Shown: piece by piece, positions 18,539-26,046 of the stretch
Numbering within the stretch: the stretch's first letter is position 1
Layout: every line of letters begins with the position of its first letter
Source: Haloplanus sp. GDY1
GTDB lineage: Archaea; Halobacteriota; Halobacteria; Halobacteriales; Haloferacaceae
DNA length: 64,000 nt
Assembly: GCF_023703775.1 (NCBI RefSeq)
Contig: NZ_CP098514.1
Coordinates: 186,001-250,000 of the forward strand
Reading direction: 5' to 3'
Position numbers and translations under genes: made by a program
Notes under the pieces: model-generated
Databases searched by the model: none
Told to the model about the DNA's origin: nothing
The model's input: only the letters and a program-made list of their open reading frames with translations

Positions 18539-18915
18539 CCGTGTCCGACGTCGGTGACGTCTCGCTTGTCGAGTTCGTCGAGGGGGAGGTCGGGAGCGCC
18601 CTGCGCGGGATCGTTCGCTACCGGGACGAGGGCAGTGCGTGGCTCTCCCTGCGACCCGACCTCGCGAACGGGGATCGGACCGACCTGGCGCTCCACGCGC
18701 TCGCCGAGCGCCTGCGGGACCGCGAGCGGACCGCCGCGGAGACGACGCTCCACGTCCCGGAGGACGCGGTGATCGTCAGGTTCCCCCACGACGAGGGTGG
18801 CACGCTCGTCAGCCTCGACCCGCACACCGCCGTCGAACCCGGGTTCGTGCGGGCGTGCGAGGCCATCGTCGAGGCGGGAGCACCGCAGCAGTCGGAGCGG
18901 GTGGTGGAACCGTGA
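18535..18915 (+). CDS. DUF7522-like protein
   Basis: A 126-residue protein: LVEFVEGEVGSALRGIVRYRDEGSAWLSLRPDL, a central helical part (ALHALAERLRDRER), and LHVPEDAVIVRFPHDEGGTLVSLDP. The order (helix, RYGE-like strand, helices, final strand pair) resembles the haloarchaeal DUF7522 family often found next to PAS kinases; assignment is from memory. Function unknown, possibly a partner of the downstream kinase. Start is a GTG overlapping the upstream stop; 34 bp separate it from the kinase. Confidence 0.55.
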   Translation: MTVSDVGDVSLVEFVEGEVGSALRGIVRYRDEGSAWLSLRPDLANGDRTDLALHALAERLRDRERTAAETTLHVPEDAVIVRFPHDEGGTLVSLDPHTAVEPGFVRACEAIVEAGAPQQSERVVEP

Positions 18916-18949
18916 ACCGGCGTCGGCGAGCATCGGGCGGGGGCGACCG

Positions 18950-21760
18950 ATGAGTCGGGAGCCATCCGCCGACGCGCTGAGCCGCGGGCTCGTCAGAGCG
19001 CTCCCCGACCGCGGGTTCGTCCTCGACGCCGACGGCCGGTTCCTCGAGGTCCTCGGCGACGGCGCGGTCGACGCCGATCCGGAGCGGTTCCTCGGTCGGA
19101 CCGTGTTCGACGTGTGGCCCGAGCGGACGGCCGAGCGATGGCTCGCCACGATCCGGGCGGCGGTCGAGGCGGACGCGGTCCGGACGCTGACGTACGACCT
19201 GTCGACCGACGGGCGCACCCGCACCGTCGAGGCGAGATGCGCCCCGATCCCCGGCGACGACGGCGAGCCCTCGTCGGTCGTCTGGGCTCCCGAGGAGGTC
19301 ACGTCGAGCGCCGACCCCGCGCGGTGGCTCTCCCGACTCGCCGACGTCGTGGCCGGCGGAAGCCGGCCGCTCGCGGAGCGCCTCGACTCGCTGTTCGACC
19401 TCGGCTGCGAGCGGTTCGGCCACGACGTCGGCCTCCTCGCCCGGCACGACCCCGGGGCGGATCGGGCGGCGATCGAGTACACCAGCGCCGAGGACGGCCC
19501 CTTCGCCGCGGAGGAACGGCTCTCGCTCGACGGCGCCGCCGCGGAGGGCGGCCGTGCCGTGTCGGCGGTCGACCTCGGCGACGACGCGACCGTCTCGCTC
19601 GGCCCCCGGATCGGGGTCGACGGCGGTCCGGACCGAACCCTCGCCTTCGTCTCGACCGGCTCCCGCGACCGATCGCCGTCCGACGAGGAGCGTCTCTTCC
19701 TCGAACTGGCGGGTCGGTGGGTGACGTACGAACTCGGGCGTCGGGTACGCGAGGCTCGCGAGCGGCGGATGGCGGCGGTCTTCGACGGCACGGCCCGGTT
19801 CATGGGGCTGCTCGAGCCGGACGGGACGCTGATCGAGGCCAACCGCGCGGCCCTGGAGTTCGGCGGCGTCGACCGCGAGGCGGTGACCGGCCGGAAGCTG
19901 TGGGACACGTACTGGTTCAGCGGCTCCGAGGGGACCCGGCGGCGTGCGCGCGAGGCCGTCGACCGGGCGGCCGACGGCGAGTACGTCCGCGACGAACTCA
20001 CGGTTCGCGGCGCGGACAGCGAGACCGTCATCGACCTGTCGATCCGTCCGGTCACCGACGAGGACGGGACCGTCACCCTGCTGGTCTCCGAGGGGCGGGA
20101 CGTCACCGAACGCGAGGAACACGCGGCGCGGTTCCGTGCGCTCACGGACGCCAACCGGCGGCTCTGGGAGGCCGAGTCCGAGGCGGAACTGGCCGAGGTG
20201 ACCGTCGACGTCGTCGAGACGGTGCTGGACGAGGGGCTGGCGGTCGTGTGGTCGTACGACGAGTCCGACGACGAACTCGTCCCGCTGGCGGCGTCCGACG
20301 CCGCGACGGCGCTCGACGGGTCGCTCCGGGCGGACGACATCGACCCCATCGCGGACGACACGACGGAGATGGCGGCCTTCCGGCGGGGCGAGACCACCGT
20401 CGTCGAGGACTACGGGACCGCCGAGGGGACCGGCCACCCGGAGACGCCGCTCGGGGCGCTCCTGATCGCGCCACTCGGCGAGTTCGGGCAGTTACACGTC
20501 GGCGTCCACTCCGCCTCGGGGTTCGACGACGAGGTCCGGAAGCTACTCGACGGCCTCGCGAACACCGTCGAGGCGGCGCTGGAGCGACTGTCGAGGGAGC
20601 GGAAACTCGAACGGAGCCGGGAGCGGCTGGCGCGGACCGAGCAGTTGGCCACCGTCGGCGGGTGGGAACTCGACGTCGAGACTGAGGCGCTGACGTGGAC
20701 CGACGGCACCCGGCGCATCTACGGGACCGACGACGACTACGAGCCCACCCTCGAGGAGGCCGTCGACTTCTTCCACCCCGAGGACCGGTCGGACGTCACA
20801 GAGGCGCTCGAACGGTGTCGGGCGACGGGGGCGCCGTACGAGCTGGAGGCGCGCCTCGTCACCGCGACGGGACACGAGCGGCGGGTCGAGGTGGCCGGCG
20901 AGGCCATCGTGTCTGACGGCGACGTGGTCCGTCTGGCCGGGGCCATCCGCGACGTCACCGACCGGACACACCGGGAACAGCAGCTGTCGGTCCTCCATCG
21001 CATCCTGCGACACAACCTGCGGAACGACCTCAACGTCGTCCGTGGCTTCGCCGACGCCATCGACCGGGAACTCGACCGCCTCGACGCCGCCCCCGGGAGC
21101 GACGGGGCGGTGGAGCAGTCCGTCGACGAACTGCGGACGTACACCGACCGGATCCGGGAGACCACGGAGGGCCTCGTGTCCATCGGGGACAAGGCCAACC
21201 GCATCCGGCAACTGATCACCGGCGACTCGGGGGAGGACTCGGTCTGCCGGGTGTCGGCCGCCGTCGACGCCGCCGTGGCCGACGTGGAGTCGGACCACCC
21301 GTCGGTCGACGTGGACGTCGACGACCTCCCGGAGGCCGCCGTCGAGGCGTCCCTGGAAGCGGTGGTCTTCGTCCTCCGGGAGTTGCTCGACAACGCCGTC
21401 GTCCACGCCGAGTCGGCCGACCCCGACGTCGCGGTGCGGAGCGAGCGGGTGAGCGCCGATCACGTCGCGCTCGACGTCGTCGACTGGGGGTCGGGCATCC
21501 CGAGCGACGAACTCGAGGCGCTCCGGCGCGACGAGGAGGCGGCCCTGTCACACGGGAGCGGGATCGGCCTCTGGGTCGTCAACTGGCTCGTGTCGTCGGT
21601 CGGGGGATTCCTCGACTTCGAGACGACCGACGGCCGGGGAACGGCCGTCACGGTGACCCTCCCCGTCGCCAACGACTCGCCGGACGCGCCGACGGCGGCC
21701 GTCCCCACGCGGGCCGCGGGCGGGAGCGGGACGCCGACGGGGGGTGGCGGCGGTGCGTGA
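18950..21760 (+). CDS. Multi-PAS/GAF sensor histidine kinase
   Basis: A 936-residue soluble sensor kinase without clear membrane segments. Visible order: PAS (about 10-100), GAF-like (165-260), PAS (275-390, FMGLLEPDGTLIEANRAALEFGGV), GAF (395-540), PAS (560-665, WELDVETEALTWTDGTRRIYG), then dimerisation/phosphoacceptor LHRILRHNLRNDLNVVRG and HATPase_c with LRELLDNAVVHAE (N box), DWGSGIP (G1) and GSGIGLWVV (G2). The ligand is unknown. ATG at 18950 preceded by a G-rich SD-like run. Followed by its likely partner response regulator with an 8-bp overlap. Confidence 0.9.
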   Translation: MSREPSADALSRGLVRALPDRGFVLDADGRFLEVLGDGAVDADPERFLGRTVFDVWPERTAERWLATIRAAVEADAVRTLTYDLSTDGRTRTVEARCAPIPGDDGEPSSVVWAPEEVTSSADPARWLSRLADVVAGGSRPLAERLDSLFDLGCERFGHDVGLLARHDPGADRAAIEYTSAEDGPFAAEERLSLDGAAAEGGRAVSAVDLGDDATVSLGPRIGVDGGPDRTLAFVSTGSRDRSPSDEERLFLELAGRWVTYELGRRVREARERRMAAVFDGTARFMGLLEPDGTLIEANRAALEFGGVDREAVTGRKLWDTYWFSGSEGTRRRAREAVDRAADGEYVRDELTVRGADSETVIDLSIRPVTDEDGTVTLLVSEGRDVTEREEHAARFRALTDANRRLWEAESEAELAEVTVDVVETVLDEGLAVVWSYDESDDELVPLAASDAATALDGSLRADDIDPIADDTTEMAAFRRGETTVVEDYGTAEGTGHPETPLGALLIAPLGEFGQLHVGVHSASGFDDEVRKLLDGLANTVEAALERLSRERKLERSRERLARTEQLATVGGWELDVETEALTWTDGTRRIYGTDDDYEPTLEEAVDFFHPEDRSDVTEALERCRATGAPYELEARLVTATGHERRVEVAGEAIVSDGDVVRLAGAIRDVTDRTHREQQLSVLHRILRHNLRNDLNVVRGFADAIDRELDRLDAAPGSDGAVEQSVDELRTYTDRIRETTEGLVSIGDKANRIRQLITGDSGEDSVCRVSAAVDAAVADVESDHPSVDVDVDDLPEAAVEASLEAVVFVLRELLDNAVVHAESADPDVAVRSERVSADHVALDVVDWGSGIPSDELEALRRDEEAALSHGSGIGLWVVNWLVSSVGGFLDFETTDGRGTAVTVTLPVANDSPDAPTAAVPTRAAGGSGTPTGGGGGA

Positions 21761-22439
21761 GGCCACACCCCTGTCGGGGACCGTCGTGATCGCCGAGGAC
21801 GAACCGGGTCTCGTCGACCTGTACCGCACGTGGCTGTCCGACCGACACGAGGTACGCACCGCCGCGGACGGTCGGGAGGCGATCGATCGGATGGACGGCG
21901 ACGTCGACGTGGCGCTTCTCGACCGCCGACTGCCGCGACGCTCCGGCGACGACGTGCTGGAGTGGATCAGGGCCCACGAGGACTGCCGGGTCGCCATGGT
22001 CACCTGCGTGGCACCGCATCCCGACGACGACCTGCCGGCCGACGCGTATCTGACCAAACCGGTCTTCCGGGAGACGCTGGCGGAGACGGTGATCGACCTC
22101 CTCCTCCGGGGGCGAACCGACGAGGACACGCGCACCCTCCTGGCGCTCGTCTCCCGCAAACTGGCGCTGGAGGAGTCGTACGCCGCCCCCGAACTCGACT
22201 CCCATCCCGGGTACGCGGCCCTCGAAACCCGCATCGACCGGCGACTCGACCGCCTCGGCGCCGAACTGCGGACCGCGGCGTCCCGACACGGGATCGAGGC
22301 CTGTCCCGAGTGTGGCCGGCGTCGCGGCGACGCGGAGCGCGTCGGAGTCGTCGAACTCGGCCCCGCCGCCGTGAAGTGTCTCGGCTGCGGGGCCGTCGTG
22401 AGGGCCGCCGATCCGTCGGAGGGGTCGGACGCGGCGTGA
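21753..22439 (+). CDS. HalX-domain response regulator with C-terminal zinc ribbon
   Basis: About 228 residues. The receiver domain (residues 10-120) has the acidic pair in VVIAEDEPGLVD, the phosphoacceptor Asp in VALLDRRLP, and Lys in YLTKPV. The following helical segment (residues 125-185) corresponds to the HalX output domain. The C-terminus adds CPECGRR and CLGCGAVV, a four-cysteine ribbon not part of the usual HalX protein. Overlaps the kinase stop by 8 bp, so kinase and regulator are a cognate pair. GTG at 21753 preferred; another GTG lies at 21744. Confidence 0.8.
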   Translation: MREATPLSGTVVIAEDEPGLVDLYRTWLSDRHEVRTAADGREAIDRMDGDVDVALLDRRLPRRSGDDVLEWIRAHEDCRVAMVTCVAPHPDDDLPADAYLTKPVFRETLAETVIDLLLRGRTDEDTRTLLALVSRKLALEESYAAPELDSHPGYAALETRIDRRLDRLGAELRTAASRHGIEACPECGRRRGDAERVGVVELGPAAVKCLGCGAVVRAADPSEGSDAA

Positions 22440-22513: not shown

Positions 22514-22972
22514 ATGTCCCTCGACGTGGCGGTTCCCGATCCACCAGAACTCGAACAGATCGATCCGAACGAGTACGAGGACGCCGACGTGGTCGGGGAC
22601 ACGGACTACAAGCGGGACGAGATCGAGGCGCTCCTCCGGGATGGGGCGTGGGCGGACGCGTTCGCCGAGTGGGCCGACGGGACGCCCCTCGACGAGTCGG
22701 AGTTCGACGTCGTCACTGACCTGGACATGATCGCGCAGTTCGACTTCTTCTGGGACTCCTTCGCGGAGCGCGTCGGCTACCACGCGCCGGGGATCCCCGA
22801 GGACTGGAAGGAGCGGAACTACCACCCCGACCTGGACTCGTGGGGGACCGTCTCGGGGATCAACGCGGCGATGACGGAACTCGGACAGATCGTGTGTGAC
22901 GTGCTGAAAGACGACTACATCGACTGGGAGACGGAGTACGAGGCGCCCGACGACCTGCCGGATTTCGACTAG
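22514..22972 (+). CDS. Conserved haloarchaeal protein of unknown function
   Basis: A 152-residue very acidic protein with no motif I recognise. It has a repeated aromatic/acidic pattern (DLDMIAQFDFFWDSFAERVGYHAPGIPEDWKERNYHP, with WGTVSGINAAMTELGQIVCDVLKDDYIDW) suggesting an all-helical fold. A TATA-like CTTTATG lies about 30 bp upstream of the ATG at 22514, so it has its own leaderless promoter. It is convergent with, and overlaps by 4 bp, the LOV kinase gene. Confidence 0.7.
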   Translation: MSLDVAVPDPPELEQIDPNEYEDADVVGDTDYKRDEIEALLRDGAWADAFAEWADGTPLDESEFDVVTDLDMIAQFDFFWDSFAERVGYHAPGIPEDWKERNYHPDLDSWGTVSGINAAMTELGQIVCDVLKDDYIDWETEYEAPDDLPDFD

Positions 22973-24465
22973 TCGCCGAGCGGCACCGAGAGCGTGACGA
23001 CGGTGCCGCCCGCGTCCGCTTCGGCCACCGAGAACTCCCCGCCGGCCTTCCTGACGATCCAGTGGATCTGCCAGAGGCCCAACCGTTCCGCGTGGTTCAG
23101 CGGCGTCTCGCCGCCGTCGAGGACCTCGACCTCGCGGTCGGGGATGCCGGGGCCGTCGTCCTCGATTTCGACGTCGACCCACTCCCCGCCGCGCGTCCCG
23201 ATCCGGACCTCGACGGAGGGGTGTCGCCCGCGGTTGTGTTCGACGGCGTTCTCCATCGCCTCCTCGATGGCGGTCGTCAGTCCGCCGACGGCCACCTCGA
23301 CCGGTTCGTCCGGGAGGGCGACCGAAAACGTCGCCTCGGGGTAGCGATCCTCGAACATGCTCACCAGTTGCTCGATGCGGTCGTTCAGGACGACGGGCTC
23401 GCCGGCCGACTCGGCCATCGAGATGACCCGGTCGATCCGCCGCACCGACTCCGCGAGCTCCATGAGGTCGACGGCCGCCCGCTCGATCACCCCGAGCGAG
23501 TCCAGGGAGCCGTCCACGTCCGCCTCCTCCCGCAGCAACGCGACGTGGCCCTCGATCAGGTTCATCTTGTTCTTCAGGTTGTGGCTGAGGACGCGGTTCA
23601 ACACCTGGAGCCGTCGCTCCCTGATCTTGCGGTCGGTGATGTCCGTCTGAAAGCCGACGAAGTTCCGGACGGTGCCGTCGTCGCCGCGGACGGGCGCGAC
23701 GTCGAGTTTCTGCCAGTACCGCCGGCCGTTCTTGCGGTAGTTCACGATGTCGACGGAGACCGGCCGTTCGGCGGCGATGTGCTCCCGGAGCGTCCGGCGC
23801 GTCTCCGGGTCGGTGTCCGCGCCCTGCAGGAGGCGACAGTTCCGGCCGACGACCTCCTCCTCGTCGTACCCGGTCAGCTCCTGAAACCGCTCGTTCGCGT
23901 AGATCATCGGGTTGTCGTCGCGGTCCGGATCGGTGATGGTGATGCCGACCGGGGCCTTGTCCATCGCCCGCTCCTTCAGGCGGAGTTCGGCGACCGTCTC
24001 CTCGAGTTCCCGCGACCGGGCTTCGAGTTCGACCGCGGTCAGTCGTCGCTGGATCAGGTTGTCGATCCGGGAGAGGAGTTCGGCCTTCCCGACCGGGAGT
24101 TCGATCACGTCGTCGACGTACTCCCAGACGGCCGGGCCGACGGCGTCCGCGGCGTCGGCGGACACCAGGAGCACGAACGGCAGGAAGGCGTCTTCGGTCC
24201 CGCGACCGGCCTCGGCGACGTCCGCGATGCGGTCGAACTCGGTCCGGTCGATCCCACCCCGGTCGAACACGCAGCAGTCGTACTCCGCCCCGAGCGCTGC
24301 CGGATCGGTCGCCGTCTCGATCCGGTACCGGCGGCCCAGCGTCTCCGCCAGCAGGTCACGGTTGCGACCGGGGCCCATGAACAGCAACACGCGTGGCTCG
24401 TCGCCCGCCCGCCGGCTACCGCCTCCCCGATCGGCCGTGTCCCCATGGCCTAGTTCCTGTGACAT
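22969..24465 (-). CDS. LOV-domain photosensor histidine kinase with receiver-like N-terminus
   Basis: A 498-residue kinase. Residues 25-145 form a receiver-like domain. Residues 155-280 are a LOV-type PAS: GRNCRLLQG with the flavin-adduct cysteine at Cys210, NYRKNG (Asn242), and FVGFQTDIT with the key Gln273. The second flavin-contact Asn (FWN in typical LOV) is Gln252 here. Then LSHNLKNKMNLIEGH (phosphoacceptor His near 296) and HATPase_c (EEAMENAVEHN, DDGPGIP, GLGLWQ-like ERLGLWQIH). A blue-light response is inferred from LOV chemistry. Divergent from a KaiC-type ATPase 123 bp away. Confidence 0.85.
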   Translation of the reverse strand: MSQELGHGDTADRGGGSRRAGDEPRVLLFMGPGRNRDLLAETLGRRYRIETATDPAALGAEYDCCVFDRGGIDRTEFDRIADVAEAGRGTEDAFLPFVLLVSADAADAVGPAVWEYVDDVIELPVGKAELLSRIDNLIQRRLTAVELEARSRELEETVAELRLKERAMDKAPVGITITDPDRDDNPMIYANERFQELTGYDEEEVVGRNCRLLQGADTDPETRRTLREHIAAERPVSVDIVNYRKNGRRYWQKLDVAPVRGDDGTVRNFVGFQTDITDRKIRERRLQVLNRVLSHNLKNKMNLIEGHVALLREEADVDGSLDSLGVIERAAVDLMELAESVRRIDRVISMAESAGEPVVLNDRIEQLVSMFEDRYPEATFSVALPDEPVEVAVGGLTTAIEEAMENAVEHNRGRHPSVEVRIGTRGGEWVDVEIEDDGPGIPDREVEVLDGGETPLNHAERLGLWQIHWIVRKAGGEFSVAEADAGGTVVTLSVPLGD

Positions 24466-24554
24466 GTTGGCAGACGAAAGCGGTGGTATCGACTCTCATG
24501 GGCCACGGCTCCGTAATTGTTGGCTTCTGATACTCCGCTGTCACCACTCCTGTC

Positions 24555-24562
24555 CTTTATGA
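24555..24562 (+). promoter_or_regulatory. TATA-like element of the KaiC-family gene
   Basis: CTTTATGA lies 27-34 bp upstream of the ATG at 24589, the spacing expected for a leaderless haloarchaeal transcript. It supports that start over two longer in-frame starts. Confidence 0.45.
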
Positions 24563-24588
24563 GGCCGAGTGCCGTATCCGGCACATCC

Positions 24589-26046
24589 ATGGCGTCGACC
24601 AGTCGGCTCTCGACGGGCATCGAGGGACTCGACGAGATCCTGCACGGCGGGTTCATTCCGGAGCGCAACTACATGCTCCGTGGGCCTGCCGGCTCCGGGA
24701 AGACCATCCTCGGGTTTCACTTCCTCGAGGCGGGCCTCGCGAACGGCGAGACGGGGCTGTTCGTCAACCTGGAGGAGGACCTCGACGACCTGCGGGCGAA
24801 CGCGGCCGCGCTCGGCTTCGAGACGGACGCCATCGAGTTTCTCGATCTGAGCCCGACCGCGGAGGCGTTCACCGAGGACGACACCTACGACGTGTTCGCG
24901 GCGGCCGAGGTGGAACAGGAACCGGTCACGACCGAAATCGTGGACGCGGTGTCGTCGGTCGACCCGGATCGGGTGGTCGTCGATCCGCTCACGCAACTCC
25001 GCTATCTCACGTCCGATCAGTACCAGTTCCGCAAGCAGGTCGTCGGGTTCATGCGCTATCTCAAGCGACAGGGGGCGACCGTCGCCTTCACCGTACAGCA
25101 CCTCCCCGACCTGCCGACCGAGGACCTGGAGTTCATCGCCGACGGTACGATCAAACTGGGGTCGGCCCCGCACGGACGGACGGTCACCGTCCCCAAGTTC
25201 CGCGGGTCGAGCACCCGAGGCGGGGACCACGCCTACCGGATCGCCGACGACGGCATCCACGTCTTCCCGACGCTGAAGCCGGGGGACCACGCCGCCGACT
25301 ACCCGTTCGAACAGCTCTCCGCGGGCATCCCGGAGGTGGACGACCTCCTGCACGGGGGCCTCGAACGCGGGACGGTCAGCGTCATCAGCGGCCCCACCGG
25401 CGTCGGCAAGACGACGCTCGGCACCCAGTTCATGAAGGAAGCCGCCAGTCGCGGCGAGCGGTCGGTGATCTACCTCTTCGAGGAGACCACCCGGACGTTC
25501 GTCGAGCGGTCGGAGTCGGTCGGCATCCCCGTCGAGGAGATGATCGAGGAAGGCACGCTCTCGGTTCGCGAGGTCGAGGCGCTGGAACTGTCACCCCAGG
25601 AGTTCGCGAACACCGTCCGCGAGGACGTCGAGCGAAACGACACGCGGATCGTCATGGTCGACGGCATCGCCGGCTACCGCCTGACGCTCCGTGGCGAGGG
25701 CGACGTGGTCCTGCAGCGGATGCACGCGCTCGGTCGCTACCTGAAGAACGCGGGCGTGACCACCATCTTCGTCGACGAGACGAGCGCCATCACCGGCGAG
25801 TTCACCGCGACCCAGGAGAACATCAGTTACCTGGCGGACAACCTCGTCTTCCTGCGCCACCTCGAACTGCACGGCGAACTCCGGAAGGCCATCGGCGTCC
25901 TGAAAAAGCGCACGAGCGACTTCGAGCGGACCCTCCGGGAGTTCGAGATCACCGGCGACGGCATCCGCGTCGGCGAGCCGCTCTCGCGGATGCGCGGGAT
26001 CCTTCGCGGAACCCCGGAGCTCATCGACGACGCCGACGACGGCTGA
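24589..26046 (+). CDS. KaiC-family double-domain RecA-like ATPase
   Basis: A 485-residue protein with two KaiC domains. Domain 1: STGIEGLDEILHGGFIPERNYMLRGPAGSGKT (Walker A residues 32-39) with the paired glutamates in NLEED; domain 2: SAGIPEVDDLLHGGLERGT, GPTGVGKT (about 270) and YLFEET. This matches archaeal KaiC-like ATPases, homologues of the cyanobacterial clock protein but without KaiA/KaiB here. C-terminal tail (LKKRTSDFERTLREFEITGDGIRVGEP) is the usual form in haloarchaea. It may act as a signalling ATPase paired with histidine kinases; the divergent LOV kinase is an obvious candidate partner. Confidence 0.88.
   Translation: MASTSRLSTGIEGLDEILHGGFIPERNYMLRGPAGSGKTILGFHFLEAGLANGETGLFVNLEEDLDDLRANAAALGFETDAIEFLDLSPTAEAFTEDDTYDVFAAAEVEQEPVTTEIVDAVSSVDPDRVVVDPLTQLRYLTSDQYQFRKQVVGFMRYLKRQGATVAFTVQHLPDLPTEDLEFIADGTIKLGSAPHGRTVTVPKFRGSSTRGGDHAYRIADDGIHVFPTLKPGDHAADYPFEQLSAGIPEVDDLLHGGLERGTVSVISGPTGVGKTTLGTQFMKEAASRGERSVIYLFEETTRTFVERSESVGIPVEEMIEEGTLSVREVEALELSPQEFANTVREDVERNDTRIVMVDGIAGYRLTLRGEGDVVLQRMHALGRYLKNAGVTTIFVDETSAITGEFTATQENISYLADNLVFLRHLELHGELRKAIGVLKKRTSDFERTLREFEITGDGIRVGEPLSRMRGILRGTPELIDDADDG

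Follow-up and report, generated by a model that had tools for sequence, protein, structure and literature searches.

The question raised by this locus is whether a histidine kinase with a putative blue-light sensor and the KaiC homologue encoded beside it act together, and through which part of the kinase they might meet. The two genes lie within a 64,000-nucleotide stretch of the genome of Haloplanus sp. GDY1 (NCBI RefSeq assembly GCF_023703775.1, contig NZ_CP098514.1, positions 186,001 to 250,000 of the forward strand), hereafter the window, to which all coordinates refer; the genome as a whole comprises 3.44 Mb in 4 contigs. A 498-residue kinase composed of a pseudo-receiver, a LOV domain and a histidine kinase core (22969..24465, minus strand) is transcribed divergently from a double-domain KaiC ATPase of 485 residues (24589..26046, plus strand, the start being taken as the ATG at 24589), and 123 base pairs (bp) separate them. 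We lean towards the view that the kinase and KaiC form a two-protein signalling module in which KaiC docks on the light-sensing kinase via the pseudo-receiver. This view draws on the pairing of the genes, the intact ATPase and LOV residues, the receiver-like predicted fold of the kinase N-terminus and the KaiC-linked distribution of the pseudo-receiver.

Orthologues for following the conservation of the pair were collected by searching the genomes of the family with the kinase sequence, and others came with KaiC loci. Among the 33 distinct aligned kinase orthologues, 29 are divergently paired with KaiC and four have lost it; a further orthologue is cut off by the end of its contig. KaiC was the query that brought in seven of the 33 (L060-L063, L082 and their like), so that these are paired by construction; where the kinase alone served as query the paired ratio is 24/28 or better. 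The preliminary description of this locus had raised the possibility of random neighbours in other genomes, and random they are not. Within the window's genus the pair is flanked on one side by a conserved hypothetical gene and on the other by a thioesterase; a further genus (g14, probably Halorubrum) has none of these flanking genes, yet kinase and KaiC are still side by side. All divergent KaiCs fall into a single clade of 35 in a FastTree phylogeny of 131 rows (support 99), where the partner is a canonical LOV kinase in 31 cases, a kinase with the adduct Cys replaced in three and another PAS partner in one. A wider collection of 145 KaiC open reading frames contained 103 with a kinase at 1.2 kb or less (divergent in 40 cases, downstream of KaiC in 58 and otherwise arranged in five), and 50 of these 103 kinases have a canonical LOV domain, although these counts include near-copies and a few double counts and describe the sample, not independent events. 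An enrichment of LOV among KaiC partners was considered (31/81 compared with 25/67 of non-partners) and is uninterpretable, since it was resemblance to a LOV kinase that brought the non-partners into the sample; what is claimed here is recurrence, not enrichment.

Judged from sequence comparisons, the pseudo-receiver at the N-terminus of the kinase (residues 22-150; 24016..24402, minus strand) is the strongest link between kinase and KaiC. No Pfam model matches these residues. Their structure, predicted from 15 sequences with a predicted local distance difference test score (pLDDT) of 77, has the strand-helix order of a receiver, and Foldseek searches with it returned receivers at template modelling (TM) scores of about 0.7-0.77 by target length. 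A profile built from 41 diverse N-terminal domains has its best sequence match in the PDB with residues 154-276 of PleD (E 8.5e-17), a receiver-like segment of a diguanylate cyclase response regulator, whereas the window protein is a kinase. The phosphoacceptor Asp, D68, is present in 40/41 of these domains; the acidic pair of receivers is degenerate (M30, G31 and P32 in the window) and the conserved Lys is found at its position in at most 2/41, so that the full residue set of a phosphorylatable REC domain (Asp, acidic pair and Lys) is lacking. These features point to a pseudo-receiver with a receiver-like predicted fold.

The distribution of this domain follows that of KaiC. Using a profile trained on KaiC partners, 98 of 100 KaiC-adjacent kinases were found to carry the pseudo-receiver after one iteration, while in the window's own genome it occurs in 2/27 of the kinases examined, a few of which are cut by locus ends. 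The other of these two kinases (contig 3, L250:4219-7179, G000) has two PAS domains and a HATPase domain and lies beside broken KaiC pieces. The profile gave 61 matches in the 89 genomes surveyed from the order, and 51 of these had a double KaiC no more than 3 kb away, where about 0.003 would be expected per match; the search imposed nothing that would place matches beside KaiC, and three of the ten exceptions adjoin KaiC remnants. The association is also found in cyanobacteria: 145 genomes of one class yielded 14 profile matches, 12 of them with KaiC in their 1.5 kb flanks, and in four of a set of five cyanobacterial genomes a single match reached 114-141 bits, all others staying at or below 43 bits. 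The catalytic cores of the KaiC-partner kinases split into two deep kinase lineages, and the partial correlation with KaiC distances is 0.57 for the pseudo-receiver compared with 0.29 for the kinase core, falling to 0.32 and 0.15, respectively, after thinning. This REC subfamily marks KaiC-partner kinases in archaea and cyanobacteria, thus suggesting a shared signalling module. On the cyanobacterial contigs L075, L078, L079 and L080 the KaiCs are 50-58% identical to the haloarchaeal KaiC and a pseudo-receiver kinase adjoins them. At loci L181, L186, L217, L230, L232, L233 and L234, KaiC is followed by two kinases which both have the pseudo-receiver, and some KaiCs may thus have two partners.

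The input to the window kinase is very likely light. Pfam recognizes PAS_9 at residues 172-278 (E 1e-22) and HATPase_c (PF02518) at residues 395-496 (E 2e-14), and we place the LOV domain at residues 163-285 (23611..23979) and the HATPase_c domain at residues 395-498 (22972..23283), both on the minus strand as are the codons given below. Its closest PDB entries are LOV proteins and histidine kinases responsive to blue light, with E values as low as 2e-34, and the NCBIfam blue-light families YtvA and BluLightHisKinLov are both matched under the family cut-offs. The motif GRNCRLLQG, which includes the flavin-adduct cysteine position C210 (23836..23838), follows the GXNCRXLQ pattern of LOV photoreceptors; of the flavin-contact positions N242 and Q273 are present, and the second Asn is replaced by Gln252 (23710..23712). 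H295 (23581..23583), the predicted phosphoacceptor, completes with HATPase_c the hallmarks of a histidine kinase. C210 is conserved in 29/33 orthologues and N242, Q273 and H295 each in 33/33. Because the LOV residues are conserved and another haloarchaeal LOV domain has a photocycle in salt concentrations as high as 3 M (PMC12202551), light sensing is likely. The adduct Cys is replaced by His in L060 and L061, which come from two near-identical genomes, by Trp in L089 (G111) and by Phe in L094 (G074); among these, KaiC is also lost only in G111. Tandem KaiC-partner kinases at L190, L191, L198, L199, L207, L218 and L225 have Pro at the adduct-Cys site (GRNPRFLQ) of a LOV-like PAS domain in which the Asn is kept and the Gln mostly kept. 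A full-length AlphaFold model of the kinase was poor in the LOV region (pLDDT 61, predicted TM score 0.38) and was not used. A plasmid search with the kinase returned distant PAS kinases only, none covering 80% of the query.

The KaiC protein gives two matches to the Pfam KaiC family (E 3e-76) and aligns with full-length KaiCs of solved structure (E down to 6e-62), its nearest named match being that of Haloplanus ruber (81% identity). Both Walker A motifs (GPAGSGKT, 24682..24705, and GPTGVGKT, 25390..25413, plus strand), both Walker B motifs, both Glu pairs and the lysine/arginine motifs are kept. KaiC residues T426, S431 and T432 correspond to T408, S413 and Y414 in the window protein (S413-Y414, 25825..25830, plus strand), and Ser followed by Tyr is found in 35/35 KaiCs of the divergent clade; Tyr at the second site is known from some cyanobacterial KaiC3 proteins. 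Beyond the final block aligned with KaiC the protein has just six more residues, whereas the solved chain extends further there. Most of what the preliminary description had reported is borne out by these results: C210 in GRNCRLLQG, Asn242 and Gln273 are where it had placed them, the shared intergenic region is exactly 123 bp (24466-24588), the divergent neighbour is a double KaiC homologue, and blue-light sensing by the LOV domain, as it had proposed, is very likely given the residues and the LOV structures among the best matches. It had also pointed out that Gln252 stands in place of the usual Asn and may alter the photocycle; the substitution is correct, but it is a trait of the window's genus (8 Gln and 1 Glu in its nine members), the other 24 of the 33 orthologues all having Asn, and a family-wide trait was rejected.

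The intergenic region (24466..24588) is a candidate divergent promoter region. In many g14-type loci a TATA-like CTTAG box lies about 27 nucleotides from the kinase start, back to back with a TTTATAT box upstream of KaiC and with about 10 bp between the two; this pattern caught 18/27 loci at any spacing, and the kinase-side box persists in one genome without KaiC. The window spacer is longer than those of the g14-type loci. Such back-to-back boxes suggest that the kinase and KaiC may be co-regulated. Just upstream of the KaiC start there is a perfect inverted repeat, GTGCCG-TATC-CGGCAC (24569-24584); the nearest relative (L090) shows no such repeat.

How such a module might work can be sketched, the flavin photochemistry and the kinase and KaiC activities being drawn from the protein families concerned. 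The LOV domain would bind flavin and form the Cys210 adduct under blue light, which in turn may alter how the kinase autophosphorylates His295; a response regulator encoded at another locus would then receive the phosphoryl group. KaiC would act as an ATP-driven, autophosphorylating hexamer, and may dock on the kinase via the N-terminal pseudo-receiver; its nucleotide or phosphorylation state could gate the kinase or, conversely, the kinase could reset KaiC. The simplest reading of the pseudo-receiver is that it docks on KaiC, much as the corresponding domain of CikA binds KaiB (PMC12632262). We would put at about even the chances of a broader proposal, namely that the N-terminal pseudo-receiver is a dedicated KaiC-docking domain, in a module common to haloarchaea and some cyanobacteria whose inputs are exchangeable, the input being LOV here.

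Several observations weigh against a light-sensing module of this kind. Many KaiC-partner kinases are without any LOV domain, and the adduct Cys is gone in four kinases of the KaiC clade, three of which stand beside an intact KaiC. KaiC is decayed or lost in four genomes in which the kinase frame is kept, the LOV Cys being intact in three of them, which argues that the kinase can matter without this KaiC. KaiC remnants persist after two of the four losses, and in one case the matched stretch contains an in-frame stop; G083 and G111 have other double KaiCs elsewhere (identity of 50% or less), so that a substitute is possible there. No conserved response regulator adjoins the pair in the orthologue neighbourhoods. 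The co-occurrence of pseudo-receiver and KaiC across the 89 genomes (both in 40, pseudo-receiver only in 4, KaiC only in 2, neither in 43; Fisher p = 3e-18) should also be considered with caution, as the test assumes independent genomes where these are related, and a profile trained on KaiC partners favours relatives of such partners, so that the p-value overstates independence.

Some of these points would also suit two proteins that share regulation and a pathway without contact, the kinase signalling to a remote regulator, KaiC acting on another target and the pseudo-receiver controlling only its own kinase. The divergent and apparently overlapping promoters in many loci and the persistence of the kinase after KaiC loss agree with this, as does the ability of pseudo-receivers to regulate their own kinase, e.g., in CikA (PMC12632262). 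However, it is the pseudo-receiver, rather than the core or the sensor, which follows KaiC across genomes, and we therefore regard this explanation as possible, if rather doubtful. A chance juxtaposition of an ordinary LOV kinase and an unrelated KaiC, which might be entertained from the view of a single genome, is scarcely credible when 29/33 orthologues are paired amid differing flanks and 51/61 pseudo-receivers lie near KaiC.

The loss of the adduct Cys in four orthologues and the replacement of Asn252 in the window's genus raise a further prospect, that the LOV domain has given up photosensing and, through Gln252 or lost flavin binding, has become a plain PAS adaptor. This is unlikely, as C210, N242 and Q273 are all in the window protein, the match to LOV structures is strong and a photocycle has been demonstrated for a LOV domain from a haloarchaeon (PMC12202551). 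Still less probable, and very unlikely in our view, is a light-entrained Kai-type clock with KaiC as timekeeper and the LOV kinase as light input. Intact ATPase motifs in a double KaiC and the conserved Ser at its phosphosite would fit a clock, and transcripts of kaiC homologues, one of them beside a fixL kinase, cycle in light-dark culture of Haloferax volcanii (PMC3941300). However, no KaiB above the Pfam cut-off was found in 60 genomes of the family (its own and 59 others) in searches for which the Synechococcus elongatus control was positive, and in the window's own genome there was no KaiB match at all; in addition the second phosphosite is Tyr414, KaiC is without the C-terminal KaiA-binding tail, and it has been lost repeatedly with the kinase retained. 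A clock is thus not supported for this pair. The light-response or timing module envisaged by the preliminary description survives in its first part, a photosensor being very likely and the pairing conserved, but not in its second, given the missing KaiB and tail and the independent losses of KaiC.

The idea of archaeal KaiC as a signalling hub is already known, KaiC-like ATPases having reportedly been portrayed by Makarova in 2017 (cited in PMC5847659) as archaeal signal-transduction hubs wired to two-component proteins. The pairing described here supplies an archaeal KaiC with a named partner, a candidate domain for docking and, for one clade, an input from light. If the broader docking proposal is true, archaeal KaiC would gain a direct, KaiB-free partner. 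A photosensor adjoining KaiC also bears on the coupling of light to KaiC where KaiA and KaiB are missing. In S. elongatus, likewise, a double-ring KaiC works with the histidine kinases SasA and CikA, and CikA also has a pseudo-receiver, which binds KaiB (PMC12632262). Unlike these, the window kinase has its pseudo-receiver at the N-terminus and a LOV input, its gene adjoins KaiC and no KaiB was found; the N-terminal KaiB-like (thioredoxin-fold) domain of SasA was not found in it either, its own N-terminal domain matching receivers.

Closer at hand, a double KaiC beside a PAS-type kinase is already known from Haloferax volcanii, in which cirC adjoins fixL and its transcript cycles in light-dark culture; the portion of that paper available (PMC3941300) does not describe fixL as a LOV photosensor and mentions no pseudo-receiver. 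The archaeal LOV domains of Lake Diamante are likewise haloarchaeal and mostly belong to multi-domain kinases, some with receiver domains, but the excerpts of PMC12202551 report no KaiC link for them. In the limited literature covered, no paper was found on a LOV-kinase/KaiC pairing or on a KaiC-linked pseudo-receiver, an absence which is weak evidence; a 2025 review was aware of no published study of what archaeal pseudo-receivers do (PMC12632262).

A further two-component pair lies near the kinase at 18797-22439, where the gene of a PAS-GAF-PAS kinase overlaps that of a REC-HalX-HalOD2 regulator. This regulator (21744-22439) was considered as the cognate partner of the LOV kinase and rejected, being absent near every orthologue. 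Its HalOD2 domain is a rare output domain, described from 14 proteins (PMC5847659).

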